DNA from: Deltaproteobacteria bacterium
GTDB taxonomy: Bacteria; Myxococcota_A; Polyangia; JAAYKL01
Direction of reading: 5' to 3'
Assembly: GCA_016935665.1 (NCBI GenBank)
Contig: JAFGQN010000204.1
Coordinates: forward strand, 1 to 64,000
DNA: 64,000 nucleotides
Made by a program: the position numbers and the translations under genes. Below, in pieces: positions 2,306-39,410 of the stretch. The stretch's first letter is position 1. Each line of letters starts with the position of its first letter. Below the pieces are notes generated by a model. The model was given only the letters and a program-made list of their open reading frames with translations, searched no databases and was not told the origin of the DNA.

Positions 2306-2307
2306 CG

Positions 2308-3567: not shown

Positions 3568-3732
3568 GAAATATGCGACAAATTCAGATAATGGTTCAGG
3601 GGCCGTCACGTATCTGCGGCCGCGTCAATGCGCCCCATTGGGCAATGCGCCTCTCTTATACAGCTTTAATGGGGCAGTTCAACACAATCCTTTGAAAATG
3701 AGGGCGCGACAATGGCGTGACCATGCGGGAAA

Positions 3733-5121: not shown

Positions 5122-5126
5122 TTTCA

Positions 5127-5174
5127 AATTGGTTCTCTCCCAAATCAAATAATTGGCTCTTCACCATACCAATT
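5127..5174. promoter_or_regulatory. Candidate MocR operator: three CCAATT boxes
   Basis: The divergent intergenic region holds AATTGG at 5127-5132 and 5151-5156, a direct repeat 24 bp apart, each followed by a CTCT-like tail. An inverted copy, CCAATT, lies at 5169-5174. Several characterised MocR regulators (GabR, PdxR, TauR) bind repeated short boxes near divergent promoters, so this is a plausible operator. Binding is inferred. Confidence 0.45.
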
Positions 5175-5214
5175 AAATTACAGACACTCATCAAGGGATG
5201 TAAAGGAGTGTTTG

Positions 5215-6114
5215 ATGAATATTCTGATAATGTCGACAGCCATGTTTCTTGCGGGCTCCAGTATTGTGGTCGCTAAAAAGCTCATCTGTACCATGCCCGT
5301 ATTTCTCGCCAATGAACTCAGCCTGCTGCTGGCGTTGCTTATTCTGCTACCGGTGGGCGTCCGCCATTTGACGCAAGTGGCCCCCCGCGATGCCGTCGCG
5401 CTGTTTAAAATGCTGCGATGGCCCTTTTTGCAGGCGCTGTTTGGCATGGCCCTGTTTCGCGTGCTTATGTTTTTGGGACTGCAACATCTGTCCGCCATTG
5501 ACGGGGGACTGGTCACGGCCACCACACCGGGAGTCATGGCGCTGCTGGCATTTGTGCTGTTGCGTGAAAAAACCAACATCATGCGAATCGTTGGCATCCT
5601 GCTCGCGGTAAGTGGAGTGGCGGTGCTTCACTGGCACAACACGGCATCCGGCGGCTCGGCGGTGGGGGTTGTGCTCATTTTACTGGCGACGGCCTGCGAA
5701 GCGATGCTGACCATTTTCAGAAAGATGGAAAAGGCGCCCATATCCCCGCTTTCCAATACGTTTTACATCGTTGTGTTCAGTAGTGTGCTGCTCGCGCCGG
5801 CGACGGTTGTGGAGGGACAATGGCCATCCATAATCTCCCTGTCGCTGGAGGAATGGATGGGGTGTCTGTACATGGGATGGATTGCCACCGTGCTTGCGTA
5901 CTGGTGCTGGGGATATGCATCTGCTCACCTGGAGGCAGGCGTTACCGGGATTATCACCGCCATGATGCCCCTGTCGGCCACAGTCATCTCTATTGTGTGG
6001 CTCGGCGAACCCCCTGGATTGCAGCACCTGCTGGGCGGCCTGTGCGTTATTTCCTCAATCTTTGTCATCACTGCACCGTTTGACGCCTGGATGGATCGGA
6101 GACAAAGGACATGA
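5215..6114 (+). CDS. EamA/DMT-superfamily exporter
   Basis: An inner-membrane transporter of 299 residues with about ten hydrophobic helices in two EamA repeats of ~140 residues, the usual size for drug/metabolite exporters that release amino acids or related metabolites. The frame is open further upstream to 5062, but the ATG at 5215 has a strong AAAGGAG at 5202-5208 with 6-nt spacing, and the protein then begins directly in TM1. It is divergent from the MocR regulator, which suggests control by it. The 3' end overlaps the 3' end of the convergent MFS gene by 47 bp. The substrate is unknown. Confidence 0.9.
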   Translation: MNILIMSTAMFLAGSSIVVAKKLICTMPVFLANELSLLLALLILLPVGVRHLTQVAPRDAVALFKMLRWPFLQALFGMALFRVLMFLGLQHLSAIDGGLVTATTPGVMALLAFVLLREKTNIMRIVGILLAVSGVAVLHWHNTASGGSAVGVVLILLATACEAMLTIFRKMEKAPISPLSNTFYIVVFSSVLLAPATVVEGQWPSIISLSLEEWMGCLYMGWIATVLAYWCWGYASAHLEAGVTGIITAMMPLSATVISIVWLGEPPGLQHLLGGLCVISSIFVITAPFDAWMDRRQRT

Positions 6115-7366
6115 GCAGCAGTCCGATGGCGAAGAATACGCCGATGGACAGCACGGCCATTCGCTGACTGCTGAATGCATCCGAGACGAGTCCAAACACC
6201 AGGGGGCCAACAATGGCCGACCCCTTGCCGGCAAATGCCATGAAACCGAAAAACTCCCCACTGCGTCCCTCTGGCGCCAGCTGTCCCACAAACGCACGGC
6301 TGGTTGCCTGAGAGGCGCCGATGCACAGAGACGCTAAAACGGCCACTGCCCAAAAGCAGGTTTGTGCGCCGTCCACTGTAAACAGTCCTGGCCATGCGGC
6401 GAGTTCTGATCCGAAAACCACCGCCAGCCACATCAGCAACGTGATAACGATGGTTCGCTTTCCCCCTTTGGCTTCGGCGATGCGCCCGAACACATAGGCG
6501 CCAGGGGCCGCAATTACATTCATAACAATAATTAAAACGATATTCTGTGTGGTGGTAAATGCCAGCGAATCCTTTGAAAACGCCACCGCAAACACAATAA
6601 TGGTGGCCACTGCGTTGTTGTAAAAAAAGAACGCGGCAAGGAACTTGAGCAGGTTTTTGTAGTTGCCCAGTTCCAGGACAGTTGAAACAAAGCGACGCGT
6701 TCCCATTTGAATGGATTTAATGGCGCCTGCCGGGGTTTCGGGTTTGCTGTCACGCAGCAAAGCAAACGCGGGAATGGCGAACACCGCAAACCAGACCGAT
6801 ACAATGAGGGGTATCAGATGCAGCCAGGTTCCCCCCATTGCAATGGGCAAACAAATCAGCAGGCAACCCAATCCTCCCAAATATCCCAGAGCCCAGCCCG
6901 CGCCACTCAATCGATCCATTTGAGCGGGGGGCACGAGGGTTGGCAAAAATGAATTGTAAAACACCTGCGACCCCTCAAATCCGACTAACGCCAGAACAAA
7001 AGCGCCAAACGCCAGCATGACAGTCCCGGGTCCGGTAAAAGTCAGCGCGGCTGTGGCCACCATGCACAGCAGGGCAAAACTCACCAGGAAAAACCGTCGT
7101 TTCCCCGAAAAATCAGCGATGGCCCCCAGCAGAGGCGCCGTCAGAAAAACCACGGCGGCCCCCAGTGAGTTGGCCATTCCCCACAGTTTATCGGATTCGC
7201 CCACTTTATCGGCGCCAACCACCACGTCCTTGAAATAAATCACGTAAATGGCTGTGATAATTACAGTTGGAAACGGTGAATTGGCAAAATCAAAGAGACA
7301 CCAGCTGAATCGCTGTGCCTTGGTGGACATGGCAGGGACGTCTACAGTACTGTTTTCGATATTCAT
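6068..7366 (-). CDS. MFS transporter of the UMF1 (Atg22-like) type
   Basis: A protein of 432 residues with about 12 hydrophobic segments. The N-terminus carries FSWCLFDFANSPFPTVIIT, which matches the W-x-x-x-D-W/F-A-N-S-A/P-F motif at the start of UMF1-family proteins. These relatives of yeast Atg22 are thought to export amino acids or other small molecules; the bacterial substrate is generally unknown. It starts with an ATG at 7366. The coding sequence converges with and overlaps the exporter on the other strand (6068-6114). Upstream, between this gene and the response regulator, lies a long inverted repeat. Confidence 0.85.
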   Translation of the reverse strand: MNIENSTVDVPAMSTKAQRFSWCLFDFANSPFPTVIITAIYVIYFKDVVVGADKVGESDKLWGMANSLGAAVVFLTAPLLGAIADFSGKRRFFLVSFALLCMVATAALTFTGPGTVMLAFGAFVLALVGFEGSQVFYNSFLPTLVPPAQMDRLSGAGWALGYLGGLGCLLICLPIAMGGTWLHLIPLIVSVWFAVFAIPAFALLRDSKPETPAGAIKSIQMGTRRFVSTVLELGNYKNLLKFLAAFFFYNNAVATIIVFAVAFSKDSLAFTTTQNIVLIIVMNVIAAPGAYVFGRIAEAKGGKRTIVITLLMWLAVVFGSELAAWPGLFTVDGAQTCFWAVAVLASLCIGASQATSRAFVGQLAPEGRSGEFFGFMAFAGKGSAIVGPLVFGLVSDAFSSQRMAVLSIGVFFAIGLLLMSFVSDPSRRQTVQ

Positions 7367-7393
7367 GCAGGCACTCTATTGCGAGAACATCAT

Positions 7394-7445
7394 TGTGGCA
7401 ATAATTTGCAGGCAATCAACGCCGAATTGTTCCGTTATTGCCACA
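7394..7445. repeat. Perfect 11-bp inverted repeat with 30-nt loop
   Basis: TGTGGCAATAA at 7394-7404 is exactly complementary to TTATTGCCACA at 7435-7445. It sits in the 102-bp gap between the stop of the response regulator and the start of the UMF1 transporter, both on the minus strand. No T-run follows on either strand, so it is not a standard intrinsic terminator. It may be a two-site operator or a leader-RNA hairpin. Confidence 0.7.
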
Positions 7446-7468
7446 TACGCATCGCTGCCATGCCGGCG

Positions 7469-7906
7469 TCAATTCGCCAGAGATTCGACGATACCTTCGA
7501 AAGACACGGGCTTGATATGATAATGCTGAATCAGGCCGGACCGGATGTGGGGCGCAAACAGCGCCGGGTCGTTGGCTGAAATCATCACTCTGGCCATCGC
7601 CGGGTAATTGATAGCCACCTGAGCCAGCAACCAGATCCCATTGTATGTGGGCATGTCGAAATCGGTAATAATGGCTTCAAAATCACCTGTGGCCAACCGC
7701 ACCGCCGCCATCTCGGCATTCGGCGCGGTCTCTACAATGAAATGTTTGGTTAGAAATCTCCTCAATGCCCGCAATACAGATCCGTCATCATCCACCACGA
7801 GCACCTTTTTCTTCTCGCTTTGCCTGGAAATTCCAAACTGGACCAATTCGGTTTTCAATGCGCGTACTGCCATGATTCCCCCAAATTTAATTGTGTTGTG
7901 GAACAT
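7469..7906 (-). CDS. Single-domain response regulator (CheY-like)
   Basis: A 145-residue protein made of a short N-terminal tail and one receiver domain. Visible residues are the acidic triad VVDDD, the phospho-acceptor Asp82 in ITDFDMP, the MISA Ser/Thr position and the conserved Lys in HIKP. No DNA-binding or enzymatic output domain is present. The last part, SGLIQHYHIKP, closely resembles SGLIQCFLNKP in the neighbouring regulator at 8095, so the two are paralogues. The partner kinase is not identifiable; hybrid or PAS kinases at either edge of the window are possible. It is probably expressed apart from its neighbour because a terminator lies between them. Confidence 0.88.
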   Translation of the reverse strand: MFHNTIKFGGIMAVRALKTELVQFGISRQSEKKKVLVVDDDGSVLRALRRFLTKHFIVETAPNAEMAAVRLATGDFEAIITDFDMPTYNGIWLLAQVAINYPAMARVMISANDPALFAPHIRSGLIQHYHIKPVSFEGIVESLAN

Positions 7907-17718: not shown

Positions 17719-17824
17719 ATCGCCTGAAAAATTTATTCGGGTGCGTCCCCGTCGCTTTTCGGCTAAATATTAAATGTCCCGACAATCGGTCCAATCCGGC
17801 GATGTCAATGCAAGGAGCAACGGA

Positions 17825-18751
17825 ATGCGTACCACTATCATTCATCTCAGCGATCTTCACATTGGACACTGGCCCGAATTTCCGCCATCCGACATAGAGG
17901 AGAGCAACCTGCGCCACATTGTTCAGTCTCTCGTACAACTGTTTAATGTTGCCCCAAGGCCGGTTATTGTCATTACCGGGGATCTGGTTAATGATGGCAC
18001 GACCAAACAGTTTGCAGATGCGAGAAGAATCCTCGCTCCACTTTATAACGCCGGGTTTGTTGTGCTTCCTGTTCCAGGAAATCACGACTACGGTGTTTTG
18101 GGAAACCACACGGAGAAGAAACGATTTGCCAGATTTAAAAAAGCCTTTTTTGGAATGGATAATCCGCATTTCCCCCTGGAAAACATTACATACCCGTTTG
18201 TGAAGAAAATTCACGGTCACTACTTTATCGGGCTCAATTCAATGAATGCGGAAACCGATGGCGCTGACCGTTGGCTGCCCAACGGAGAAATGGGACTAAG
18301 ACAGCGCAACGACCTCAAAGGCGTGCTCCGACGATTGTCATCCAGAACCGAGGCGCGTCGAATGAAGGAAAAAGTAATTGTCTATCTCCACCACCATCCT
18401 TTCATTTTTCCCCACGACAAAGAACGCCTCGCCGTGCGCGCCATCGAACAATTCGCCCACTGTCTTAAGGATGGTGATGAGTTTTTAGAGATCATAAATG
18501 GGCAGGTGGATGTCCTGTTATTTGGCCATGACCATGAGCATATCAACTACTCCAACACGTTCCTTTCCAGCGAAAAAGAGTACAATATACCGGTAATACT
18601 CGCGTGCGGAAAAAGCACTCAGCCGTCCCATGAAACAGTCGTGGACTACGCGGCCATCGTCTCCGGAAAAGCCTATAGCGACACATTGCTGGGATGGCGG
18701 ATGGATATTGACGAGGCCGGTCAAATGGTCATTGAATCCATATTTTTCTAA
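17825..18751 (+). CDS. Calcineurin-like metallophosphoesterase
   Basis: A 308-residue protein with the full metallophosphatase motif series: SDLHIG (D-x-H), GDLVNDG (GD-x-x-x-D), GNHDYG (GNHD), YLHHHPF (H) and GHDHEH (GH-x-H). These residues ligate two metals for phosphoester hydrolysis. No signal peptide is seen, so it is likely cytoplasmic. The frame opens earlier at 17774, but the ATG at 17825 has AAGGAG with 7-nt spacing and begins directly at the first beta-strand. Substrates of this family range from cyclic nucleotides to nucleic acids, and the exact one cannot be inferred. Confidence 0.9.
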   Translation: MRTTIIHLSDLHIGHWPEFPPSDIEESNLRHIVQSLVQLFNVAPRPVIVITGDLVNDGTTKQFADARRILAPLYNAGFVVLPVPGNHDYGVLGNHTEKKRFARFKKAFFGMDNPHFPLENITYPFVKKIHGHYFIGLNSMNAETDGADRWLPNGEMGLRQRNDLKGVLRRLSSRTEARRMKEKVIVYLHHHPFIFPHDKERLAVRAIEQFAHCLKDGDEFLEIINGQVDVLLFGHDHEHINYSNTFLSSEKEYNIPVILACGKSTQPSHETVVDYAAIVSGKAYSDTLLGWRMDIDEAGQMVIESIFF

Positions 18752-18946
18752 CATCTCCCAATCCGTCTGTCCCCAATCGACCAGAGGATGACACCTGCAA
18801 CGATACCATTGCAAAAATAAGCGTATGGCAATGCGTCTCCGCCATGGAAGACGACCATGTATTGATCAGGATTTATCTATTCATTTGCACATCGCAAAAT
18901 CCATGGTTAACTGAGATTACAGCTTTAACAGAGGAGACAAAAACCG

Positions 18947-20665
18947 ATGATGACATTCGGAAGACGCATCGCATCTCGTTTTATGCGGTTGCGCATTGGC
19001 ATGAAAGGCGCCGCTATGCTGAAACGCCTCAATGCGGAAAGCAAAGACGTTAAACGTGCACAGGCGAATGTGTTGAACGATATTCTGTCGTATGCCGGCG
19101 ATACCATATATGGTCTGGAGCATGGGTTTTCAACTGTTCGTTCGCCTGCAGAATTCAAAGACTCTGTTCCGGTGAACACATACGAGGATTTGCGTCCCTA
19201 CGTAAGGCGTCATGAGGAAGGCGAATCGAACGTTCTCTTTCCGGGCAAACCCATGTTCTACGCAACCACCAGTGGCACAACGGACGCCCCCAAGCGCATC
19301 CCAATCACGCGCAAATACCACGACGAGTGTTACAACGGGCTATCCAATATCTGGCTGCACTCCATGTTCCAGGAGTCACCGGGCTTTATGAACGGGTACG
19401 ACATCAGCATGGTGGGCAAAGCCATTGAAGGATACACCGCGGATGGCACCTCATACGGTTCGTTCTCGGGACATATGAATGCCTATATGCCGGAATTCAT
19501 CAAACGGTTTCGCGTTATCCCATTTGAGATTCACGATATCGACGATTATCCATCCAGATACTACGCTCTGCTTCGCGTGGGGCTAACGTATCCCATTCGG
19601 TGGATAGTGGCCGCGAATCCAAGCACATTACTGGAATTGCATCGCGCGTCCATGATGAACATTGAGAGCATTATAAAAGACATTCATGACGGCACGCTGA
19701 AAGAACATCTCAACATCAGCGCGCCCATCAGAGCCAGAATTGAGGCCCGGCTCAAACCCTGTCCCAAAAGAGCCAAAACGTTGGAACGTTTACTCGACCA
19801 ATGGGGGAACGCGCTTCGCCCCAGGCATTACTGGCCATCGCTGCAGATGATAAACACCTGGAAAAGCGGAAACGCCGGAGTTTACCTTGAACAGACCGCT
19901 GATTTTTATTCGCCGCAAACGGTTATTCGAGAGTTTGGCTACCTTGCCACCGAAGCACGGGCCGGCATAGTGCTGAACAAGAATCAGGAAACCAGTATCC
20001 TGGCATGCCATCTCTTGTACTTTGAGTTTGTGGACCGTGACGATTTAGACAATACGCATCCCACATATCTTTGTGCCCATGAGCTGGAAAAAGGACGGGA
20101 ATACGCCATTTACATCACCACCCCCAGTGGTCTTTACCGCTACAACATTAATGACATTGTGCGAGTGGAGGATTTCCACGGCACTTTTCCAATGGTTCGC
20201 TTTGTTCAAAAAGGCAGTGGCGTCACCAGCATGACCGGGGAAAAACTCTATGAGTCTCAGTATCTGATAGCGGTAAATAAATCCATGCACGACCTGAATA
20301 TACAGCCGGGATTCCATTTGGCCTTCGCAGATATTGAACGGTCTGTTTACCATTGCTTTGTGGAACTGGAGCAACGCAGCATTGAACAGGACAAGATCAT
20401 CGCCAGGCTGTCAGCCGACATCGACGACACGCTGCAACAGATGAACCCCGAATACGCCGCCAAACGAAAATCGAACCGACTTGGGCCACTGCAGGTTCAC
20501 TCTTTGCAGCCCAACGCGTTTGCTGCTTATAAAACCGAAAAACTGAAACAGGGACACCGGGAAGGTCAATTCAAAATGACCCATCTGCAGCAGGATCCCT
20601 CGCAGATGCGCCTATTTTTTGACCTTTGCAACAACGAATCCAAATCCACCGGAGGAAATTTATGA
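18947..20665 (+). CDS. GH3-family acyl-acid adenylating/amido synthetase
   Basis: A 572-residue protein of the GH3 (auxin-responsive) fold within the ANL adenylating superfamily. The ATP/AMP motifs are visible: TTSGTTDAPKRIP (near residues 107-119, phosphate loop), YLATEARAGI (motif II) and YRYNINDIVRV (motif III, near 397). GH3 enzymes adenylate a carboxylic acid and usually join it to an amino acid or amine; bacterial members are mostly uncharacterised. A GAGGAG lies 10 nt before the ATG at 18947. The stop overlaps the start of the polyketide synthase gene as ATGA, so the two are translationally coupled. The acid released by the PKS thioesterase is therefore the most likely substrate (inference). 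The downstream RBS sits inside the 3' end of this gene. Confidence 0.88.
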   Translation: MMTFGRRIASRFMRLRIGMKGAAMLKRLNAESKDVKRAQANVLNDILSYAGDTIYGLEHGFSTVRSPAEFKDSVPVNTYEDLRPYVRRHEEGESNVLFPGKPMFYATTSGTTDAPKRIPITRKYHDECYNGLSNIWLHSMFQESPGFMNGYDISMVGKAIEGYTADGTSYGSFSGHMNAYMPEFIKRFRVIPFEIHDIDDYPSRYYALLRVGLTYPIRWIVAANPSTLLELHRASMMNIESIIKDIHDGTLKEHLNISAPIRARIEARLKPCPKRAKTLERLLDQWGNALRPRHYWPSLQMINTWKSGNAGVYLEQTADFYSPQTVIREFGYLATEARAGIVLNKNQETSILACHLLYFEFVDRDDLDNTHPTYLCAHELEKGREYAIYITTPSGLYRYNINDIVRVEDFHGTFPMVRFVQKGSGVTSMTGEKLYESQYLIAVNKSMHDLNIQPGFHLAFADIERSVYHCFVELEQRSIEQDKIIARLSADIDDTLQQMNPEYAAKRKSNRLGPLQVHSLQPNAFAAYKTEKLKQGHREGQFKMTHLQQDPSQMRLFFDLCNNESKSTGGNL

Positions 20666-23600
20666 ACGATACATATCGTGATGGTAAAATGCCCATCGCC
20701 ATCTGCGGCATCGGCTGCCGTTTTCCGGGAAACGCAAATACCGCAGACGAATTCTGGACACTGCTTAAAAACAAAACCGACGCCATCGGGAAAGTTCCCG
20801 CTGACCGCTGGGATGCTGACGCGCTGTACGACCCCAACTATAAAACCAACGGAAAAATCCACATTAAGGAAGGAGGGTTCATCGACAAAATTGCGGAATT
20901 CGACGCCGCGTATTTTGGAATTGCGCCAGTGGAAGCCCACAACATGGACCCGTCGCAACGGTTATTGCTGGAACATACCGTCATGGCACTTGAGGACGCA
21001 AGGGAGCGACTCGATTCCATCGAAGGCACGCGTGTGGGCGTGTTTGTCGGGGCATCCTCGTCTGAATACAGCGGCATTCTGCAGAATTTTTCAGAACGTG
21101 CCTCCATTGGGGCCCATACAAACACGGGCAGTTCCCCAGCGATAAATGCCAATCGCATCTCTTATACCTTCGACCTGCACGGACCAAGTTTTACAGTTGA
21201 CACCGCATGTTCCGCCAGCCTTGTGGCGGCGCACCTCGCATGTCGCAGCATTTGGAACGGTGAGGCCAGCGGCGCCATTGTGGCCGGTGTGAATGTAATG
21301 ATTAAGCCCGAACTGCATATCGGTTTCAGTACAGCAGGCTTTTTGTCCCCTGACGCCCGGTCAAAATCGTTTGACGCCAAAGCAAATGGATATGTGCGCA
21401 GTGAAGGCGTTGGTGTCCTTTATCTCAAGCCGCTCAATGAGGCCATCGCCGACGGCAACCGAATCTACGCCACCATCATAGGCGGCGCCATCAACGAAGA
21501 CGGTCGCACCAACGGAATTGCGTTGCCCAATCCGGACGCTCAAATCGATGTGATCACGCGAGCGTGCAAGGATGCGGGAATCGCACCGCAAATGGTGACC
21601 ATTGTTGAAGCCCATGGCACCGGTACCGCAGCGGGCGACCCCATCGAATGTAAAAGCATCGGCGCCGCTATCGGACAGAACCGAAATGATGACTGCCTCA
21701 TCGGTTCGGTTAAAAGCAATATTGGACACACGGAACTGGCGTCGGGCAGTGCAGGCCTCATAAAACTGGCCTTGTCGCTGTACCACGGCGAGGCTCCGCC
21801 CACTGTGCATTTCGAAACCCCCAACCCGGCAATCGACTTTGACAAACTTCACATCCGGGTTGTGGACCGACAAATGACCATTCCAAAACGGGATGGCGTG
21901 ATTTACGGGGGTATCAACTCATTTGGTTTTGGTGGCGCCAATGTCCATCTGGTGCTTAAATCATTTGTCCCCCAACCACCGTTCACGCGAACCAGCGAAT
22001 CGTTTCCGTTGCCTTTGACAATTTCGGCAAGGAGTGACAACAGCCTTCGAGCACTCGCTGCGCAGTACAGAAACCTGCTTGAGCAGGAGGACATTCACCT
22101 TTTAGAACTGGCTCGCAACACAGCGCTGCACAGGTCGCATCTGGAGATTCGTGCGGCCATCAGCGCCAACGACAAGTCGGATGCAATATCGAAATTAACC
22201 GACCTTGCGAACGGTGTCTCCCACCCTCATGTGGCCATCGGTCGTCCAAAGAATCGTTCAGGGGACAAGGTGGCGTTCGTTTTTTCGGGTCAGGGCCCCC
22301 AATGGTTTGCCATGGGCCGGGAGTTGTTGAAAACGGACGATACCTTCCGGGACACTGTCGAGGAAGTGAACAGACACCTCAGTAATTTAGGCTGGCTCAA
22401 AGAAGACGACAGCTCGTTGCTGGAAGAGCTTCAAAAAAGTGAACAGGACTCCCGATTAGACGAAACCGAAATCGTACAACCCGCGCTGTTTGCACTACAG
22501 ATGGGTGTCGCCCGCATTTGGCAGCGACTGGGTGTACAACCAGATATGGTGGTGGGCCATTCCATTGGCGAAGTGGCCGCTGCCTGCTTAAGCGGTGCAC
22601 TGTCGCTGGAAGATGCGGTGAAAGTGGTGTACTGGCGCAGCCGGTGCCAGTCCAAAGCCACTGGTCGCGGACGTATGCTGGCGGCCGGATTAACGCTGGA
22701 CGACGCCAAATCCATGCTGACACAGTTTAACGGCAAAATTGATATTGCAGCTGTAAATGGTGCCGCCATGCTCACTCTGGCAGGGGAAGACGACGCGTTG
22801 CAACTATTGTCTCGAATGCTTAAAGACAAAAAAATATTCAATCGGTTTCTGGTGGTGGATGTCCCGTTTCACAGCCACTTACTGGATGACGTAACCGCCG
22901 ATTTTAAGGCGAACGCGCCTTTGCAAAAGGGAGACGCCACCCGAATTCCACTGTACTCCACAGTTTCTGGCGCCCTTATGAATGGCGCCGATTTGAATCG
23001 CGAATACTGGGCGCAGAACATCCGTGACAGCGTGCTGTTTTATCCCACCATCGAAAAAATGATCACCGATGGCGCCACGGTTTTTGTGGAAATCAGTCCT
23101 CAACCCATTTTATCACATGGCATCAAAGAAGCGCTGGATGCGCACAACGTCGACGGTGTGATTGTTCCATCGCTGCGCCGCAATGAAGCGGAACGACTCA
23201 CGGTGTGTCGTTCACTGGCCTCTTTGCATGTGTCTGGCGTTTGCATCGACTGGAAAACGACGTTTTCCAGAGTGGCGGATAAAGATATTGCCCTGCCCCT
23301 TTATCCTTTTCAGCGGGAGCATTTCTGGAATGAATCAGAAGACGCCAAAACAGATCGAATCGGCAGCCGCATTCATCACCATTTAACCCGTAAAGTGATG
23401 GCTGCGGACAATCCCAACGACATTATCTGGGAGGTGGAATTGGACGCACGCAGTGCGCCGTACATCACCGATCACCGAGTACAGGGCCCTGTTGTATATC
23501 CCGGCGCCGGGCATGTGGATCTGGCCATTGCCGTGGGACGCGCGTCGTTTGGCGATCAATTTGGATTCATCGAGGAGATGGAATTCATGTCGCCTCTTTT

Positions 23601-26600
23601 CCTTAAAGACAAGGGAACACCGTATGATGTCCAGATACACGTGGACAGCGATGACGGGCAGTTTACAATTGCCTCCAGAAACCGCGATACCGCAACCGCC
23701 ACATGGACTGTTCACTCAAAGGGAAAACTGAACCATATCGGTGATCGCTTCGACAGCACACCGGTAACGCTGGCCGTACTGAAATCCAGAATCGACGAAC
23801 CGGTCGATCCGGGGCCGCTTTTTGCTCAGCTAAAAAAAGGCGGGCTTGATTTAGGCGAAACGTTCAGAGGAATTTCAAAACTCATGCGTCGCGATAATGA
23901 AGCCCTTGGCCGCATTCAGATTCATCCGTCCATACAACCACTGATGCACCAGTTCAACCTGCATCCCGCACTGCTGGACGCCGCTTTTCAGTCCGCATTT
24001 GGAATCATTGAGGACCGCGAAAATATGGGCGTGTACATTCCAAAAAAAATAGGCAAAATAAAATTCCACGCGCCCCCCAAAGGTCAATGCATATACTCTT
24101 ATGCCCGGGCCAGCAAAAATGAATCTGACTACATTCTTGTGGACCTCTGGGTTTTTGATGAAAATGGCGCTCTGATAGCAGAAGTCCAGGATTTCATGGG
24201 CAAGTATCTAAAAGGCTCAAGAGGCGAGGTGGACGGGGCATTGGACAGACTGTTTTTCACATCCGCGTTTGAGCGCACGTCGCGCCCCTCTCAACTGCAG
24301 CGGCGTCAATCTCTTGCGATTTTAAGTGACGCAAATTCAGTGCACACTGAGCTCGATTCAATTGTGGGACAAATACAGCAGGACGAACAGTTTCAGCCGT
24401 TTTTAAAAGCCCTTTCACCAGCGATGGACGAGTTGGCCATGCATTATGTTTTTGATGCGTTTAACAAATTGGGCGCACCACTGATACCAGGGCGACGTGC
24501 CGATGTAGAACGTTGGCCTGATACGTTGCGAATTTCACCGCGGCATCGCAAACTGTTTGATCGTATTGTCTACGAACTGGTTGACAGGGGTATTTTGAAA
24601 CGCACCGGGAAATATGTTGAAGTTCAGCACCGTCTGGAAATTCAGGATGTAACGAAAATCATCGAACATGCGTCCGTTGAGCTGGCGCCATTTGCGGCGG
24701 AGATAGATTTTTTTCGTCCAGTGGGTGAAGCACTGGCGGACGTTCTCAAAGGTGAGCGAGATCCGGCGGAAGTGCTTTTTGCCGATTCCCGCTGGGATGA
24801 AATTGTATCGTACTACACCTCTGCGTATTCGATGAACAAATACAATCGGATGATGGCTGCGGCGCTGAACGCACTCACAAAACCGGCAAAAGGCAAACCG
24901 TTACGCATTCTGGAGATTGGCGGTGGCACCGGAGGGATTACCAATGCGATTCTACCGGCACTCTCCCAGTCAGAGGTGGAGTATGTATTCACAGACATAT
25001 CTCCATTGTTTCTGGAACGCGCCAGAAATCGGTTTATTGACCATCATTGCCTGCAGTACGCAATGCTGAACATCGAAGAACCTCCGGAAGCACAGGGATT
25101 CGTGAAACACAGCTTTGACATTGTCATCGCGTCCAACGTGTTGCACGCCACAAAGAACATTCGCCAGACCATTGCCCATGCTCATTCACTGCTGGCCAAT
25201 CACGGCGCCTTGTGTCTGTTGGAGGTCACCCATGTGCCATTTTATGTGGATTTGAGTTTTGGCATGACCGATGGATGGTGGCGCTTTGAAGACGATGTCC
25301 GACTTTCCCGCTGCACCCTCGATGGGAAGGCGTGGGTTCATCTGCTCGCAACCAGTGGATTTACCGACGTGCTGGCGCATTGCGACGTAACCGACGGAAA
25401 CTGGCCCAAACAGAACGTTATGGTGGCGAGGGCCACCGGGATAGATCTTATCGATGAACCGATTCAGAGCCTTCCGAGGTGCCTGATTATGGGTGATGAG
25501 GGATTGGTCTCACAATCAATTGAATCGTTTCTAATTGACGCGGGTGTGGAATGTACACAATTGCTCACAGAAAAAGAAAAAACGACCGCCATCGAACATG
25601 GTTCAGCGTTTTCCTCAAATGTACTCTCGTCACTGGCTCAAAAGTGGTCATCCGACAGGGACAAACCGACGATTCTTTTGTACACCAGAGCGTTGGACGT
25701 TCCCGATTTGGATCGTGATACAGCCGCCGCTTTGCAAAACTCGCAAGACGTGTTGGCGGAACTCGTCGCCATTTCCAAAGTGCTCATTGACAGTGGCGCC
25801 CGGGGAGGACGTATCGTTGTTGTGACAAAGGGCGTTTCCGGCAAAAAGCCCAATATTTCTCAGTCTCCAGTCTGGGGAATGACCCGGGTAATGAGAAATG
25901 AAATGTCCAACATCCTCATAAGTGTGGTTGATGTGGACACGATCAACGATGACGTCCTCCGTCTGATATCGCATGAAATAATCGACGGCGAAAACAGTGA
26001 GGAAGAAGTGGTGTTTCAGAAGGGTCAGCGGCTGGCCACGAGGATGGCGCCCATTTCGAGAGAGGACCGGATTCGCGCCGCATCGACAGAATCCAATATT
26101 CGTGGGCAATCGGTTCAATTGATCACATCGGAAGCGGGCATCATCTCCCAATGCGCATTTCGACGCATCGAACAGGAAGCGTTGGCCAAAGACGAAGTGG
26201 CAATCGAAGTCCATTTTACGGGACTCAACTTCAGAGATGTGATGATTGCCGCCGGTACTCTTCCCGACGACGCCATTGAAGGTGGCATATTTGGCCGCAA
26301 TGCCGGACTGGAATGCGCGGGCATTGTACTTGAAACGGGCAGTCACGTATCGCATGTCAAAAAAGGCGACCGAGTAGTAGCCATCGCAAAAAGCGCCATC
26401 TCAGGTCGGGTGGTGGCCAACGCGCTGTACACGCGACAGCTGCCCAAAGATATACAAATGCCAATGGGGGCGGCAACTCCCATGGCCGCACTGACGGCCT
26501 ATACGGCGCTCTTTAAAATGGGCGACATCAAACCTGGCAGTCGTGTTCTCGTGCACGCTGCAGCGGGTGGGGTGGGGATGTTTGCCGTTCACTTCGCACA

Positions 26601-29022
26601 GGCTGCCGGTGCTATCGTGTACGCCACAGCATCGGAGGGCAAACATCAATATCTCCGGCAGATGGGCGTTGAGCATGTGTATGATTCCCGCAGCACCGGA
26701 TACTACAGCGACATCATGGCGGATACCGGAGGCGTCGGTGTCAATGTGGTGATCAATTCGCTTTCCGGTCCCCATATCACACAGAGCCTCAAGCTGCTCT
26801 CTGCGATGGGGCGTTTTGTTGAGATTGGCAAAAAAGACCTGTATGCCGACAAAAAAATAGGACTTCGGCATCTGGCCAACAACATTTCGTATTTTGCGCT
26901 GGACGTGGACAGACTCCTTTCGCAGGCGCCGGAAATGATGTCTACCCTGCTCAGCGATGCCATGACGTATTTGCAGCATAATGGCTGGCCCAATATCCCA
27001 ATTAACACGATGCCATTCAAGGATGCGACAAAGGCGCTTTCCAAAATGGCGGCGGGAGAACACATGGGTAAAATTGTCCTGGAATCGGGTATTGTGCCCG
27101 TTCAACCATGCGATACACTGCGACTGCGCGATGACGCCACGTACCTAATTGCGGGGGGTACCCGTGGTCTGGGTCTGGAAATGGCGGCGTTTTTGGCCAA
27201 ACGGGGGGCTAAGCACCTGGCACTGTTCTCTCGCAATGGGCTCAATGGCACAACCGAGATGCAACAGGTGAAACAGTTGCAAAAAGCGGGCGTGGCTGTA
27301 GAAACATTCAGCGCGGACGTCTGCGATGCCAAAGCGGTACACGCGCTGGTTCAAAAAATTAATCGCATCGGCAGACCTCTTGCAGGCGTCATTCAATCCA
27401 CTCTGGTACTGGCGGATGCCCTGCTGAATCAAATGACGCCCGAGCAATTGGCCGCACCACTGCGCCCCAAAATTACGGGCACATGGAATCTCCACGAGGC
27501 CACCAAAGAAATTCCTCTGGACTTTTTTGTCTCATTCTCATCGGTATCGTCGCTGTATGGCTTACCGGGTCAGGCCAATTATGCCGCAGCCAATCGTTTC
27601 CTTGATGACTTCGCCGCCTATCGCCAGTCGCTTGGCATGCCGGCATCCACAGTGAATCTGGGGCCTCTGGCCGAAACCGGTTTTGTGTCCCGCGAGGAAA
27701 AGATGCACGACTACCTCGACTTGAGTGGATGGCAGCCACTTGCCACCGCCGAAGTGCTGGACGCGCTGGAGCGTGTGATACTGGAAGGTCATGCGCAACT
27801 GGGTGTTTACCGGTTGGATTGGCAGCGACTGAACACGGCGTTTCCAAGGCTCACCTCTTCAAATCGATTTGCTGCCATTCGCGATGTTCTTTCCAGACAG
27901 AGTGGAAAAGCGGATTCCGGCGATATAAAACAGCAAATACAGGCCGCATCCACCAGGCAAAGACCCGTGCTCATCCGAAAAATGCTTGCGGAAGTCATGG
28001 AAAAAATACTGGGTATTGATCGAACAAAAATCGATTTTGAGACCCCCATAAACCGCATGGGGATGGATTCACTGATGTCAAATCAACTCCGCAGCGTCCT
28101 CTCCCAGCAGACCGGAATCGAGTTTTCGCTCATGCAAATCATGCAGGGGCCCAGACTCTCCGAACTGGCCAACGACATCGAGTCGCAGCTGGAACCCTCT
28201 TCATCCAGCAATGCCATCCCCGCATTGCATACGTCCTGGGCCAAACCGGTGGTTCGCAGACGCAAAGCCGCTGTACGTTTATTTACGTTGCCGTATCTTG
28301 GTGCCGGCGCATCTGTTTTTTCGAACTGGCGTCTAAATTCGCAAATCGAAGTTCTCCCCATTTTGCTCCCCGGCCGAGAGGAGCGTGCCACCGAGGCTCC
28401 CATTACCGTCGGTGAAGAACTTATTTTGAAAATGGCAAAAGGCATTGAACCGTTGCTGGACAGACCATTTGCCATCTATGGACACAGTTTTGGCGGCAAC
28501 ATCGCCATGAGCCTGGCGTCCTTTCTGGAAGGTAAACTGAACAGGCAGCCGTCGCATGTGTTTATCGGTGCGGCAGTCCCCCCGGGAGTCGCCAACCCGC
28601 TGGAGATTGAATTCACTGTCACCGATACCGAAGACGCATTGTCACTGCCCAAAGAAAAAATGATGTCCCTTTTACAACGCATCGGTACGCCACCGGCTCT
28701 ATTTAACGATAAGGAACGGTTTGATCGCATGCTCCCGGCATTGAGGGCGGATTTGGCCATTACCAAACAACGCCTGTTTCCCAGAGAACACATCATCTTG
28801 TCCCCCATTACCGCCGTGGCGGCGGACGGCGATTCCATCTATGCGCCATCACTGATTGAAAAGTGGGCACGACACAGCAGCGATTTCACAATGCACACGG
28901 TTAACGGAAGTCATCTGTTCATTCACGAAAAAGCAGCCAGAGATGAACTGCATCGGATAATTTGTGAAACGCTGCTTTCCGGGACATCACACGCATCAGC
29001 GGGAAAACAGAAATCAGCATGA
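20662..29022 (+). CDS. Iterative-type highly reducing polyketide synthase with C-methyltransferase and thioesterase
   Basis: A 2786-residue megasynthase. Domains: KS 11-432 (Cys183 in DTACSAS, both His in EAHGTGT and NIGHTEL); AT 535-826 (GHSIGE Ser634, PFHSH substrate motif, probably malonyl); DH 905-1186 (His938 in HRVQGPVVYP, Asp in HPALLDAAF); C-methyltransferase about 1330-1590 (SAM motif LEIGGGTGG near 1417); pseudo-KR about 1606-1806; ER 1810-2140 (HAAAGGVGMF); KR 2153-2413 (GGTRGLG, Tyr2307); ACP 2433-2513 (Ser2470 in MGMDSL); TE 2533-2776 (GHSFGG Ser2609, Asp in ADGD, GSH). All catalytic residues are present. The KR motif that usually reads V-I-H-A-A-G is V-I-Q-S-T-L here. One complete set of domains with KS-AT-DH-MT-ER-KR-ACP order implies iterative use, as in fungal reducing PKSs. 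GGAGGA lies 5 nt before the ATG at 20662, which overlaps the GH3 stop. The frame opens 12 codons earlier without support. Confidence 0.95.
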   Translation: MNDTYRDGKMPIAICGIGCRFPGNANTADEFWTLLKNKTDAIGKVPADRWDADALYDPNYKTNGKIHIKEGGFIDKIAEFDAAYFGIAPVEAHNMDPSQRLLLEHTVMALEDARERLDSIEGTRVGVFVGASSSEYSGILQNFSERASIGAHTNTGSSPAINANRISYTFDLHGPSFTVDTACSASLVAAHLACRSIWNGEASGAIVAGVNVMIKPELHIGFSTAGFLSPDARSKSFDAKANGYVRSEGVGVLYLKPLNEAIADGNRIYATIIGGAINEDGRTNGIALPNPDAQIDVITRACKDAGIAPQMVTIVEAHGTGTAAGDPIECKSIGAAIGQNRNDDCLIGSVKSNIGHTELASGSAGLIKLALSLYHGEAPPTVHFETPNPAIDFDKLHIRVVDRQMTIPKRDGVIYGGINSFGFGGANVHLVLKSFVPQPPFTRTSESFPLPLTISARSDNSLRALAAQYRNLLEQEDIHLLELARNTALHRSHLEIRAAISANDKSDAISKLTDLANGVSHPHVAIGRPKNRSGDKVAFVFSGQGPQWFAMGRELLKTDDTFRDTVEEVNRHLSNLGWLKEDDSSLLEELQKSEQDSRLDETEIVQPALFALQMGVARIWQRLGVQPDMVVGHSIGEVAAACLSGALSLEDAVKVVYWRSRCQSKATGRGRMLAAGLTLDDAKSMLTQFNGKIDIAAVNGAAMLTLAGEDDALQLLSRMLKDKKIFNRFLVVDVPFHSHLLDDVTADFKANAPLQKGDATRIPLYSTVSGALMNGADLNREYWAQNIRDSVLFYPTIEKMITDGATVFVEISPQPILSHGIKEALDAHNVDGVIVPSLRRNEAERLTVCRSLASLHVSGVCIDWKTTFSRVADKDIALPLYPFQREHFWNESEDAKTDRIGSRIHHHLTRKVMAADNPNDIIWEVELDARSAPYITDHRVQGPVVYPGAGHVDLAIAVGRASFGDQFGFIEEMEFMSPLFLKDKGTPYDVQIHVDSDDGQFTIASRNRDTATATWTVHSKGKLNHIGDRFDSTPVTLAVLKSRIDEPVDPGPLFAQLKKGGLDLGETFRGISKLMRRDNEALGRIQIHPSIQPLMHQFNLHPALLDAAFQSAFGIIEDRENMGVYIPKKIGKIKFHAPPKGQCIYSYARASKNESDYILVDLWVFDENGALIAEVQDFMGKYLKGSRGEVDGALDRLFFTSAFERTSRPSQLQRRQSLAILSDANSVHTELDSIVGQIQQDEQFQPFLKALSPAMDELAMHYVFDAFNKLGAPLIPGRRADVERWPDTLRISPRHRKLFDRIVYELVDRGILKRTGKYVEVQHRLEIQDVTKIIEHASVELAPFAAEIDFFRPVGEALADVLKGERDPAEVLFADSRWDEIVSYYTSAYSMNKYNRMMAAALNALTKPAKGKPLRILEIGGGTGGITNAILPALSQSEVEYVFTDISPLFLERARNRFIDHHCLQYAMLNIEEPPEAQGFVKHSFDIVIASNVLHATKNIRQTIAHAHSLLANHGALCLLEVTHVPFYVDLSFGMTDGWWRFEDDVRLSRCTLDGKAWVHLLATSGFTDVLAHCDVTDGNWPKQNVMVARATGIDLIDEPIQSLPRCLIMGDEGLVSQSIESFLIDAGVECTQLLTEKEKTTAIEHGSAFSSNVLSSLAQKWSSDRDKPTILLYTRALDVPDLDRDTAAALQNSQDVLAELVAISKVLIDSGARGGRIVVVTKGVSGKKPNISQSPVWGMTRVMRNEMSNILISVVDVDTINDDVLRLISHEIIDGENSEEEVVFQKGQRLATRMAPISREDRIRAASTESNIRGQSVQLITSEAGIISQCAFRRIEQEALAKDEVAIEVHFTGLNFRDVMIAAGTLPDDAIEGGIFGRNAGLECAGIVLETGSHVSHVKKGDRVVAIAKSAISGRVVANALYTRQLPKDIQMPMGAATPMAALTAYTALFKMGDIKPGSRVLVHAAAGGVGMFAVHFAQAAGAIVYATASEGKHQYLRQMGVEHVYDSRSTGYYSDIMADTGGVGVNVVINSLSGPHITQSLKLLSAMGRFVEIGKKDLYADKKIGLRHLANNISYFALDVDRLLSQAPEMMSTLLSDAMTYLQHNGWPNIPINTMPFKDATKALSKMAAGEHMGKIVLESGIVPVQPCDTLRLRDDATYLIAGGTRGLGLEMAAFLAKRGAKHLALFSRNGLNGTTEMQQVKQLQKAGVAVETFSADVCDAKAVHALVQKINRIGRPLAGVIQSTLVLADALLNQMTPEQLAAPLRPKITGTWNLHEATKEIPLDFFVSFSSVSSLYGLPGQANYAAANRFLDDFAAYRQSLGMPASTVNLGPLAETGFVSREEKMHDYLDLSGWQPLATAEVLDALERVILEGHAQLGVYRLDWQRLNTAFPRLTSSNRFAAIRDVLSRQSGKADSGDIKQQIQAASTRQRPVLIRKMLAEVMEKILGIDRTKIDFETPINRMGMDSLMSNQLRSVLSQQTGIEFSLMQIMQGPRLSELANDIESQLEPSSSSNAIPALHTSWAKPVVRRRKAAVRLFTLPYLGAGASVFSNWRLNSQIEVLPILLPGREERATEAPITVGEELILKMAKGIEPLLDRPFAIYGHSFGGNIAMSLASFLEGKLNRQPSHVFIGAAVPPGVANPLEIEFTVTDTEDALSLPKEKMMSLLQRIGTPPALFNDKERFDRMLPALRADLAITKQRLFPREHIILSPITAVAADGDSIYAPSLIEKWARHSSDFTMHTVNGSHLFIHEKAARDELHRIICETLLSGTSHASAGKQKSA

Positions 29023-30154: not shown

Positions 30155-32011
30155 ATGAACGGTTCAGTCATACCTTCAAAGGTTGCCTTTGTTGCCATGC
30201 CCTTCGGAACGAAAAAAACGGAGGTTGACGTCAAATCCGACGCCCCCAAAGAAGTTAATTTCGACAGACTATGGGACCTTGCGTACCGCCCTGCTCTCGA
30301 GGAAGCCGGTTACTTGCCTATTCGCGCGGACGAGCAGGATGGCGCGCTTATTATTAAGGATATGATTACGCAGCTGATACTGGCAGACCTGGTTGTGGCG
30401 GATATTTCGATTCCTAATGCCAACGTTTACTACGAGACGGGACTACGCCACGGCGGTAGCAAACAGGGTTGTCTGCTCTTTGCTGCTGACTGGGCCAAAC
30501 CGGTTTTCGATTTGGAGCAGGTGCGCCGTGGTACATACGCGTTGACAGGAGAAGATATCAAAAACGAAGACTACGAAAAGCAAAGAATTCAGATTTATAA
30601 AGCGATTGCGAATTTTGACAACACGCGCAATCCGCTGCGCGAGCTGCTGGATGACCACGTAATAGAGGCGGGGGAAAGCAAGCGCCTCACCGAAGTGCGC
30701 GATGCCGTTGTCCAATTTCAAATTGACCTTAAGGCTTGCAGACTCAAAGCTTTCAGCACTCCGGAAAGTGCAAAGATTGCAGTAACAGAATTGCTCGATA
30801 AATCCGACATTTCCAAACTGCCTTCCTATTCCCTTCGTGAGCTTTTCGATCTTGTAAGAGATGTACTCGGGTGGAAGTCTCTCGTCGATTTTTATAATAG
30901 GCTCGGCGATACCGACAGGAAACCTGTATATTTTAAAGAACAAACGGCTCTGGCGAAAAGCAGACTGGGACAATTTATCGAGGCCACCGCCGAAATCGAA
31001 AAGTTGGTTGAAGAATATGGTCGAACAATCGAGCGATGCCAACTCCTGGGGCAATTTTACAGACAACAATATTATGCTGAAGAAAACAACGCCAGGAAAA
31101 AGCGCAATCTTAACACGGCGATCAACCACTATGAAACCGGTCTTTATTTAGACTTGAACGATTACGTCTGTGCACAGAACCTGTTGCTCCTCTACTCGCT
31201 CAGAAATAACGACGGAGACGCCGAAAAGGCACGCGAAACAGCGGCTCATATTTTGCGTGCCTGCGATCATAAAGAAGCAATTCAGAGCTCCGACAAATTG
31301 ATCGATGCTGCGCGATTATCGGTTGCCTTTTTCCGCTGCGACGAAAATGCCGCCCGAGAGCTGGCCGACAAAGCATCTCAACATGACCTGTCAAACTGGG
31401 AGACATCTCTTTTCATCGAACTTTGGGAGTCTTTCGTCAAAACAATTTCGGATGAACAAAAGGAAACATTTAACAGCATTATCGATGAGTTTAAGTCATT
31501 TGTCAGCATTCCCCAAAAAGAACTGGTGACGCGCATACAACCATTGCTCATGTCATCGGGCAAAGATTATGAAAAATTCCAAACCGTAAAGGCGCGTATT
31601 GCAATAGCGGGAGAAAAGATTGTGTCCGTGGTTTCATCGGGTAGGGAAACTGTCAATACCGCGCAAACTGGAGATTACGTCGTGGAAAATCAGACCGGCG
31701 CCAAAGAAGTGTATATTGCACCAAAATCAAAATTCGAAAGTCGCTATGTTTTTAATAAAAAACTTGATTCGGAATGGAGTCTCTACAAACCGATTGGCAA
31801 GGTCAGAGGAGTGGCTGTTGATCACAGTATTCTAAGCCTTTTCGGTCAGCAAGACTCTTTTTACATCACGGCCCCCTGGAAAGAAGCTCAACATGTCGCA
31901 GAGGGGGACATGTTTGTGACAACCTTGCCAATGGATGAAAAGCTGGAGGTCTACCGTATTGCCCAAAAAGAGTTCGCCGAAACATATCGGCTCATCAACA
32001 GTACTGAATAG
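30155..32011 (+). CDS. TIR/deoxyribosyltransferase-like N-terminal domain with TPR (DUF4071-like) and C-terminal PGDYG-like region
   Basis: A 618-residue protein. Residues 8-115 form a Rossmann-like domain with VAFVAMPFG at strand 1, then LADLVVADIS and NANVYYETGLRHG. The last has the Asn-Glu arrangement seen in TIR and nucleoside deoxyribosyltransferase folds, with the Glu a candidate NAD- or nucleoside-cleaving residue. The middle (about 180-490) is all-helical and TPR-like, resembling DUF4071, the domain also found in animal MAP3K5/ASK1 kinases. The C-terminal ~100 residues contain GDYVVENQTGAKEVY, like PGDYG-type small domains. The ATG at 30155 has GGAG 8 nt upstream; the frame is open to 29930. 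Such proteins occur in bacterial conflict systems. It is directly followed by a patatin remnant, a likely former partner. Domain naming is from memory of family motifs. Confidence 0.6.
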   Translation: MNGSVIPSKVAFVAMPFGTKKTEVDVKSDAPKEVNFDRLWDLAYRPALEEAGYLPIRADEQDGALIIKDMITQLILADLVVADISIPNANVYYETGLRHGGSKQGCLLFAADWAKPVFDLEQVRRGTYALTGEDIKNEDYEKQRIQIYKAIANFDNTRNPLRELLDDHVIEAGESKRLTEVRDAVVQFQIDLKACRLKAFSTPESAKIAVTELLDKSDISKLPSYSLRELFDLVRDVLGWKSLVDFYNRLGDTDRKPVYFKEQTALAKSRLGQFIEATAEIEKLVEEYGRTIERCQLLGQFYRQQYYAEENNARKKRNLNTAINHYETGLYLDLNDYVCAQNLLLLYSLRNNDGDAEKARETAAHILRACDHKEAIQSSDKLIDAARLSVAFFRCDENAARELADKASQHDLSNWETSLFIELWESFVKTISDEQKETFNSIIDEFKSFVSIPQKELVTRIQPLLMSSGKDYEKFQTVKARIAIAGEKIVSVVSSGRETVNTAQTGDYVVENQTGAKEVYIAPKSKFESRYVFNKKLDSEWSLYKPIGKVRGVAVDHSILSLFGQQDSFYITAPWKEAQHVAEGDMFVTTLPMDEKLEVYRIAQKEFAETYRLINSTE

Positions 32012-37688: not shown

Positions 37689-39410
37689 CTAATTCAGCGT
37701 GTATTCCAGCCCCCAGATATTCACCGAAGACGCTTCGGGATAAATGATGGTGAGTTTGTCTTCTGTTTGAAGTCTGAAGGTATCGATGAGTGGATCGGAA
37801 AAATAGTTGTGGTCGGTATCGGTATGCAGCAGTTTCCAGTCGGAAAAATCATTTTCCAAAGATGCCCCGGCAATGCGAAGTCCCGGCAGTATGGCGTAAA
37901 CGTTGCCCGATGAAGATACGGCAATATTCCCGCGAAAATTTAAGATCACTTTTTGCCCATCGATATTCTCACGACGCCATTTTCCATCGGTGTCGCGCCA
38001 GTAGTGAAAGTATTCGGCTTTGGTGCGAGAACGGGTGAAATCACTGTCGTCCCCTTCAGTGTCGGGCATGTGCGACAACAGCACATGCACCCTGCCCGAT
38101 TTGTCCACTGTCATGTGTTCCTGATTGATGAGCCCTCGGTTTTGTCCGATTTCCCACACTCTGGCACCTACTGTTCCTGTTTTAATCTGGCTCTGCCCCG
38201 AAACGGCCACTTCATTTCCGTTATTGTTTTTCCACGTGCGCCCGTTGTCATCGCTGTACACATAAAATAAATCATGATTGGTTTGGGCATCGGGGGTTTC
38301 GCGCCAGCACCAAGCCGCATGCAGTCGTTTCTTGCCTGGGGTATATGCAATTCCGTGCAGGTATGCATTCACGCTGTCGCTAATACCATCGATATATACA
38401 CCAATCTCCATCCACTGATGGGTATCCGCGCTGTACTCCCACAGCGCCTCGTTGCCGCTGCCACTCTCTCCCAGTCGTACATCAAAAAGCATTCTGTTGC
38501 CGCCGGGAACGGTCACAAAGCGCGGATAGGTGACCAAAGCGATGGGTTTCTGAGAAACCAGCGAATCGGTCACATTGGAAAAACTGATAGCCGCCCACGC
38601 CACCCCCTCGGGATCCGTGATGAGATTTTCAACAGAACGCCGATAATGCAGCGTATTGCCATGATGATCAAAAGAAAGATGCAACGTTCCATCCCCAGGG
38701 CAAATCCCAAGGGAAATGGTGTTGTGCGCATCATTCGCCGTGTTTCTGTAGTCGGTAAAATCAAATTTCACCCACTCGCCATACGGCAGTTTGCGCCTGG
38801 CCATCACCACGTTTCGATTGGTATTCCAAAACGCCGTGTATTGATATCCTTTGTAGGTCAAAATGCCGTCCTGCTGGAATGATTCCCCGTTGAGATAGCC
38901 GCCATAGGAAACCACCATCAGTCCGGAATACGTCATTTTCCCTTCACCATCTTTGGTCACTCCAGGTGAAACAGGCTCAATCGCTTCAGTGGCGCTGTCA
39001 GAATCGGACACGGTGTCACTGTCGGATTCAGTCTCGCCAAGGTCACAGCACGTCTGGTTTTCATTGTCACAGAGTCCCGCTTTCTCCATGCCGCCTGCAG
39101 CATCACAATCATTGACGCAGTTGAACGCGCACCCCGAATTTTCTGTGTCTGCATCGGAATCTCCATCCGAATCGGCATCTGTGTCTGCGTCCGAATCCCC
39201 ATCCGCATCGGTATCGCCGTCCGCATCCGAATCCCCATCTGTATCAGAATCGCCATCCGAGTCTGAATCCCCATCTGTATCCGCATCAGCGTCAGCGTCA
39301 GAATCTACATCGCCATTGGAATTACCGCCCAAATCGTTGCCACCACCGCCGCACCCCATTGCCATAGTCGCTACAAGTATTAAAAAGAACATATAAAGTC
39401 CGAATCGCAT
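37689..39410 (-). CDS. Surface lipoprotein with Asp/Ser linker and BNR_4-type (ulvan-lyase-like) beta-propeller
   Basis: A 573-residue protein. The signal peptide ends in the lipobox ATMAMGC (Cys20). Residues about 32-95 are an almost pure Asp-Ala/Gly/Ser/Thr tract encoded by tandem hexanucleotides (39150-39310). A short Cys-rich piece (C-A-F-N-C-V-N-D-C-D to Q-T-C-C) comes next, then a ~420-residue domain. This domain resembles BNR-4 repeat proteins, a fold shared with PL24/PL25-type ulvan lyases: A-F-W-N-T-N-R-N-V, D-A-H-N-T-I-S-L-G, L-S-F-D-H-H-G-N-T-L-H-Y-R. The histidines there are candidate catalytic residues. It probably binds or cleaves an anionic polysaccharide at the cell surface. 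It stands alone, 155 bp after the trmD operon on the same strand. Confidence 0.7.
   Translation of the reverse strand: MRFGLYMFFLILVATMAMGCGGGGNDLGGNSNGDVDSDADADADTDGDSDSDGDSDTDGDSDADGDTDADGDSDADTDADSDGDSDADTENSGCAFNCVNDCDAAGGMEKAGLCDNENQTCCDLGETESDSDTVSDSDSATEAIEPVSPGVTKDGEGKMTYSGLMVVSYGGYLNGESFQQDGILTYKGYQYTAFWNTNRNVVMARRKLPYGEWVKFDFTDYRNTANDAHNTISLGICPGDGTLHLSFDHHGNTLHYRRSVENLITDPEGVAWAAISFSNVTDSLVSQKPIALVTYPRFVTVPGGNRMLFDVRLGESGSGNEALWEYSADTHQWMEIGVYIDGISDSVNAYLHGIAYTPGKKRLHAAWCWRETPDAQTNHDLFYVYSDDNGRTWKNNNGNEVAVSGQSQIKTGTVGARVWEIGQNRGLINQEHMTVDKSGRVHVLLSHMPDTEGDDSDFTRSRTKAEYFHYWRDTDGKWRRENIDGQKVILNFRGNIAVSSSGNVYAILPGLRIAGASLENDFSDWKLLHTDTDHNYFSDPLIDTFRLQTEDKLTIIYPEASSVNIWGLEYTLN

Follow-up and report, generated by a model that had tools for sequence, protein, structure and literature searches.

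A conserved gene pair of a GH3-family ligase and a single-module polyketide synthase in an uncultured family of Myxococcota

The analyzed stretch of DNA, 64,000 bp long and hereafter called the window, contains a gene for a GH3-family ligase immediately followed by a gene for a type I polyketide synthase (PKS). The same pair, in the same order and on the same strand, was found in all five genomes which hold either clade, belonging to three genera of one uncultured Myxococcota family; these represent five species of a single family, hence related rather than independent cases, and all are fragmented drafts, three of them named as metagenome-assembled. Functional coupling of the two genes is well supported by sequence comparison, because the pair persists in changing surroundings and neither gene turned up without the other. 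As to the chemistry, the balance tips slightly towards a route in which the acid made by the PKS would be released by the terminal thioesterase (TE), and then adenylated by the GH3 enzyme and coupled to an amine or amino acid.

The features of the pair are reported in Table 1. The stop codon of the GH3 gene (TGA, 20663-20665) overlaps the start codon of the PKS gene as ATGA, confirming the overlap claimed in the earlier note; the ATG at 20662, located behind a GGAGG, was taken as PKS start in place of the TTG at 20626, which opens the mechanically derived ORF. Similarly, the GH3 gene and the KS-AT-DH-MT-ER-KR-ACP-TE synthase claimed there were borne out by the Pfam domains found in both ORFs. 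The unit consists of two genes only, spanning, overlap included, about 10 kb in contig C37 of an 8.16-Mb draft genome: a metallophosphoesterase gene lies 195 bp upstream and a MscS channel gene 152 bp downstream. No convincing sigma-70 site was found in the stretch 18752..18946, where the promoter scan scored fewer matches than in shuffled sequences.

Table 1. Features of the gene pair, of its GH3 product and of related loci. Nucleotide positions refer to the window, unless another locus is named.
Feature	Location	Strand	Size or sequence	Basis or note
GH3-family acyl-acid amido synthetase-like ligase gene	18947..20665	+	572 aa	Pfam PF03321/PF23571/PF23572, motifs, AlphaFold model
Single-module type I PKS gene	20662..29022	+	2,786 aa	KS-AT-DH-MT-ER-KR-ACP-TE, Pfam
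Stop/start overlap of GH3 and PKS genes	20662..20665	+	ATGA	Shine-Dalgarno GGAGG just upstream
PKS C-terminal part with thioesterase	28252..29022	+		PF00975; Ser2609, Asp2724, His2751
Intergenic stretch 5' of GH3 gene	18752..18946		195 bp	Expected promoter location
GH3 motif I	residues 105-116		YATTSGTTDAPK	
GH3 motif II	residues 330-336		FGYLATE	
GH3 motif III	residues 395-403		GLYRYNIND	
GH3 GEK	residues 431-433		GEK	
Paired loci besides the window	G001 (L032), G002 (L033), G010 (L034), G005 (L035)			
GH3 and KS-KS-AT (PUFA-synthase-like) locus	L055 (G246:C462) 992-7796			KS-KS-AT gene truncated by contig end
Other synthases of the window genome	G000:C191, C58, C208, C37:90-98 kb			L115-L118; one on the contig of the window, outside the window

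At the four other loci, the GH3 proteins are 53-70% identical to the window one, and the gene that follows on the same strand encodes in each case a PKS, with 51-63% identity across the full length. The ATGA overlap is present in the window, in G001 and in G002, while the two genes are about 26 bp apart in G005 and about 70 bp in G010. Pairwise identities of the GH3 and PKS proteins correlate (r=0.92, 10 pairs). The upstream flank is common only to the window and the sister species G001, and is different in G002, G005 and G010. In G010 a gene for a Sfp-type phosphopantetheinyl transferase (L034:2-670; PF01648 and PF22624) is located directly upstream of the GH3 gene; three matches of this type are found elsewhere in the window genome.

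A search of the 20 nearest genomes and of 379 sampled genomes of the phylum revealed full-length PKS matches, scoring 4,930-5,271 bits, in the five genomes only, the next-best match (1,822 bits) being found in G081. The GH3 clade is restricted to the same five genomes, and within this set of Myxococcota each gene was found only together with its partner; beyond the phylum, sampling consisted of plasmid records. A genome-wide scan with the GH3 sequence detected no more than three close relatives, which came from a single metagenome series (ZodW), and three related loci carry Myxococcota as their record lineage. PKS homologues consistently devoid of a GH3 neighbor, named in the earlier note as the finding that would speak against it, were looked for, and all five members of the orthologous clade turned out to have one. 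The pair recurs throughout the clade; outside it, the closest PKS with this architecture, that of G081 (L108), lacks both the GH3 neighbor and the TE. Conservation of the pair in five out of five genomes, despite mostly changed flanks, rules out chance neighbors. Membership in a larger cluster was also ruled out, since the metallophosphoesterase, MscS and TPR-S genes around the window pair are not conserved with it; exceptions to the unconserved flanks are the upstream side in G001 and, some way downstream, a BNR_4 gene in G002.

The GH3, GH3_M and GH3_C domains of the ligase score 214.7, 74 and 60 bits, against a Pfam cut-off of 23.6. The nucleotide-binding motifs I-III are intact, with Ser109, Glu336, Arg398, Tyr399, Asp403 and the GEK triplet conserved; S109, E336 and D403 are invariant in a motif comparison of 30 GH3 sequences. 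The AlphaFold model (pLDDT 87) superposes on the plant GH3 structures 7vka, 4epl and 4epm with TM scores of 0.79-0.86. By sequence and predicted structure, the protein belongs to the GH3 family and has the acyl-acid amido synthetase fold, amide synthesis itself being predicted. It is, at the same time, distant from every characterized GH3. In a tree of 64 sequences the GH3 clade of the pair is monophyletic with full support, and the nearest other clade, joined with weak support (80/11), is a second GH3 of the same family, about 40% identical; in the window genome this second gene adjoins a radical SAM gene and has an amidase gene, but no PKS, in its vicinity. The pair's proteins differ from the other GH3s of the family in the motif II region (REFGYLATEARAGI vs LDFGYIASEITATD), where FGYLATEARAG stands against FGYIASEITAT, and at residues 156-163, changes which suggest an altered substrate pocket. 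Orthology to OlsH, the GH3 enzyme of Singulisphaera, was ruled out both by score (108.1 bits against the 620 required by the NF052613 equivalog model) and by context, as the operon partner is a PKS in all five genomes, not OlsI or OlsG. Ser109 nevertheless aligns with Ser115, an essential residue of OlsH (PMC12493201).

By its domains, the PKS is a single-module, highly reducing type I synthase. Its sequence begins straight at the KS, with neither a loading ACP nor a ligase domain matched by Pfam. All tested catalytic residues are intact, and invariant in five homologues: Cys/His/His of KS, Ser/His of AT, His/Asp of DH, His/Glu of MT, Lys/Ser/Tyr/Asn of KR, the ACP Ser and Ser/Asp/His of TE. 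The AT contains the motifs GHSIGE and VPFHS, and by the usual motif rules would be malonyl-specific; methyl branches are therefore expected to derive from the SAM-dependent MT domain. Among solved structures, mycocerosic acid synthase (MAS) comes closest to the condensing part. The TE is by sequence closest to type II hydrolytic thioesterases, such as RifR, TesA, the medium-chain FAS type II thioesterases and RedJ (3qmw). A lone module, a TE at the end and the absence of further PKS genes nearby make iterative use of the module probable. The same genome also encodes two synthases of the AMP-ligase-ACP-KS-AT-ACP-TE type and two PUFA-like ones.

In the proposed pathway, the PKS, working iteratively, would elongate an acyl starter with malonyl units, C-methylate the chain by using SAM and reduce it, producing a methyl-branched, mostly reduced acid. 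The type-II-like TE would hydrolyze the chain, leaving a free carboxylic acid, which the GH3 enzyme would adenylate at the expense of ATP; the acyl group would then be passed to an amine acceptor, for which an amino acid is the likeliest candidate, yielding a lipid or metabolite of the N-acyl amino acid type. OlsH needs a free fatty acid and ATP/Mg, but neither ACP nor CoA, and its authors suggested that it is inactive in living E. coli owing to scarce free fatty acid (PMC12493201). A TE-bearing PKS translated together with a GH3 would meet this problem of free-acid supply, and for this reason the sequence of release, adenylation and amidation is favored. The concomitant absence of GH3 and TE in G081, a single genome, supports it as well.

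The main rival reading, which is considered unlikely, places the GH3 enzyme at the beginning of the route, where it would adenylate a fatty or other carboxylic acid and hand it to the PKS as a starter, in a FAAL-like manner. FAAL enzymes supply starters to mycobacterial PKSs, as in the couples FadD28-MAS and FadD32-Pks13, and MAS, to which the condensing part is closest among solved structures, is itself fed by an adjacent FAAL. The GH3 gene is the first of the pair, an order which fits starter activation equally well, and in a borrelidin-like cluster, described below, a GH3 gene is located among what are presumably starter-unit genes. However, the window PKS opens with a KS and no loading ACP, while fused AMP-ligase-ACP loading modules occur in two further PKSs of this genome; the intact hydrolytic TE would yield precisely the free acid that suits a GH3, and characterized GH3s form amides, none being known to us to acylate an ACP. 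A FAAL in disguise was ruled out, as no PF00501 match was found in the two genes or in the nearest neighbors scanned.

Still less probable is a scheme in which the GH3 enzyme amidates bulk fatty acids to form an aminolipid while the PKS acid goes elsewhere, the two genes being co-expressed in one lipid program without catalyzing consecutive steps. That the two genes overlap tightly, always occur together and diverge in a correlated way argues against it, in favor of a shared substrate, and the second GH3, present in non-PKS contexts of the same genomes, may be read both ways: it shows that such enzymes occur there apart from a PKS, but it could itself fill the bulk-lipid role. On the other hand, OlsH does act on ordinary C14-C18 acids (PMC12493201). 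Least probable of all, the GH3 enzyme might join the PKS acid to a non-amine acceptor, such as an alcohol, a thiol or CoA, or re-activate it for export into a larger lipid; the divergent surroundings of motif II leave room for an unusual substrate pair, but the characterized GH3s named in the cited literature all form amides.

The pair was compared with known systems. The plant GH3s JAR1, GH3.5 and GH3.12 share with the window enzyme the three-domain fold (TM about 0.8) and the nucleotide motifs, but they are only about 20% identical to it, act on plant hormones and have no PKS partner; JAR1 links an oxylipin acid to an amino acid through an amide bond. OlsH is, like the window protein, a bacterial GH3 with recognizable motifs I-III, and the window protein would likewise form an amide from a free acid and ATP; however, the OlsH gene sits with OlsG and OlsI, with no PKS, and its product takes ordinary fatty acids and prefers ornithine (PMC12493201). 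In the case of coronatine, the polyketide acid is released and then joined to an amino acid by a distinct ligase, whose gene adjoins those of the PKS (PMC4814525). The logic proposed for the window pair is alike, although the coronatine pathway (cfa PKS and coronafacate ligase) relies on a modular PKS and many genes. Coronafacate ligase presumably belongs to a separate ligase family, not to GH3; assignment to a CfaL-type system was rejected, as the window ligase is a GH3.

Plasmid NZ_CP027299.1 of Streptomyces (L120, 1-17431) carries a GH3 gene, whose product is about 28% identical to the window one, within a type I modular PKS cluster which also includes P450, aminotransferase, dehydrogenase, F420 oxidoreductase, hydrolase and thrS genes. 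Its gene order is taken to be that of the borrelidin genes borI-borO, with BorL as the GH3. A GH3 gene, RubP3, is also included in the rubiginone cluster (PMC8487521). In both, the GH3 gene lies inside a polyketide cluster, but one that is large and multi-gene, with an aromatic or modular PKS. MAS or Pks2 with their FAAL resemble the window pair in combining a fully reducing single-module PKS, making methyl-branched acids, with an adjacent adenylating enzyme; assignment to this type was rejected, since the window AT motifs are malonyl-like instead of methylmalonyl, a C-methyltransferase and a terminal TE are present and GH3 replaces FAAL. Fungal highly reducing PKSs of the LovB type share the order KS-AT-DH-MT-ER-KR-ACP, including the HTH_51 part of the C-methyltransferase, but the window PKS is bacterial, has its own TE and is closest, among solved structures, to MAS, not to LovB.

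The earlier statement that no such system had been described holds for the exact two-gene unit of PKS and GH3, which was not found in literature, but must be qualified by the precedents of RubP3, the borrelidin-like cluster, OlsH and coronatine. For the combination of GH3 and PKS only rubiginone was retrieved, in a search covering few subscription journals; a lead on BorL returned nothing, and a survey of Myxococcota biosynthetic gene clusters never mentions GH3. Parts and logic have precedents, therefore, while the dedicated two-gene unit is, as far as searched, without one.

Other GH3 genes are found close to synthase genes in Myxococcota. G246, which belongs to another family, encodes a GH3 sharing about 40% identity with that of the window; its gene lies 250 bp upstream of a KS-KS-AT gene, in the same direction, on a single contig whose end truncates the latter gene (Table 1). 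In G050 a related GH3 gene lies about 1.1 kb from a divergent KS-KS gene. These KS-KS genes match best, with scores under the cut-off, the NCBIfam models for type I PKS and PUFA synthase. In L079, L080, L093 and L042 the KS matches near GH3 correspond to single KS genes, 4-7 kb off and not adjacent, and were discarded. The evidence is thin, but hints that GH3 enzymes may repeatedly join iterative lipid synthases. A self-contained class of two-gene pathways is conceivable, with chances a little short of even: an iterative PKS bearing a TE and a GH3 dedicated to it would make methyl-branched N-acyl amino acids or amides by an undescribed off-loading-and-capping route, which might recur with PUFA-type synthases elsewhere in Myxococcota. 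If so, the pair would count among the smallest routes by which malonyl-CoA is turned into an amidated lipid with methyl branches, and its two enzymes share a 10-kb operon which could be moved to a laboratory host. Bacterial GH3 chemistry would then take in polyketides as well as ornithine lipids, and genomes could be mined by a simple rule, that of looking for a GH3 gene next to a PUFA-type synthase or to an iterative PKS with a TE.

Some further features of the window were recorded. The upstream phosphoesterase gene (17774-18751, +) is calcineurin-like, is not present at this place in G001, and weakly resembles anti-phage phosphoesterase models (57 bits, cut-off 420). Downstream of the MscS channel gene, 30155-32011 (+) encodes a protein with a TPR-S domain (PF20308), whose N-terminus begins MNGSVIPSKVAFVAMPFGTKK and which may be part of a conflict or sensing system. 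An IS200-like Y1 transposase gene (PF01797) is located at 54998-55546 (+). The BNR_4 protein gene lies 8.7 kb downstream of the pair in the window (37689-39410, -), and is the next gene in G002 (L033:20153-21706, -); the two proteins are 71% identical, and the window copy has an Asp/Ser/Gly-rich repeat near its N-terminus.
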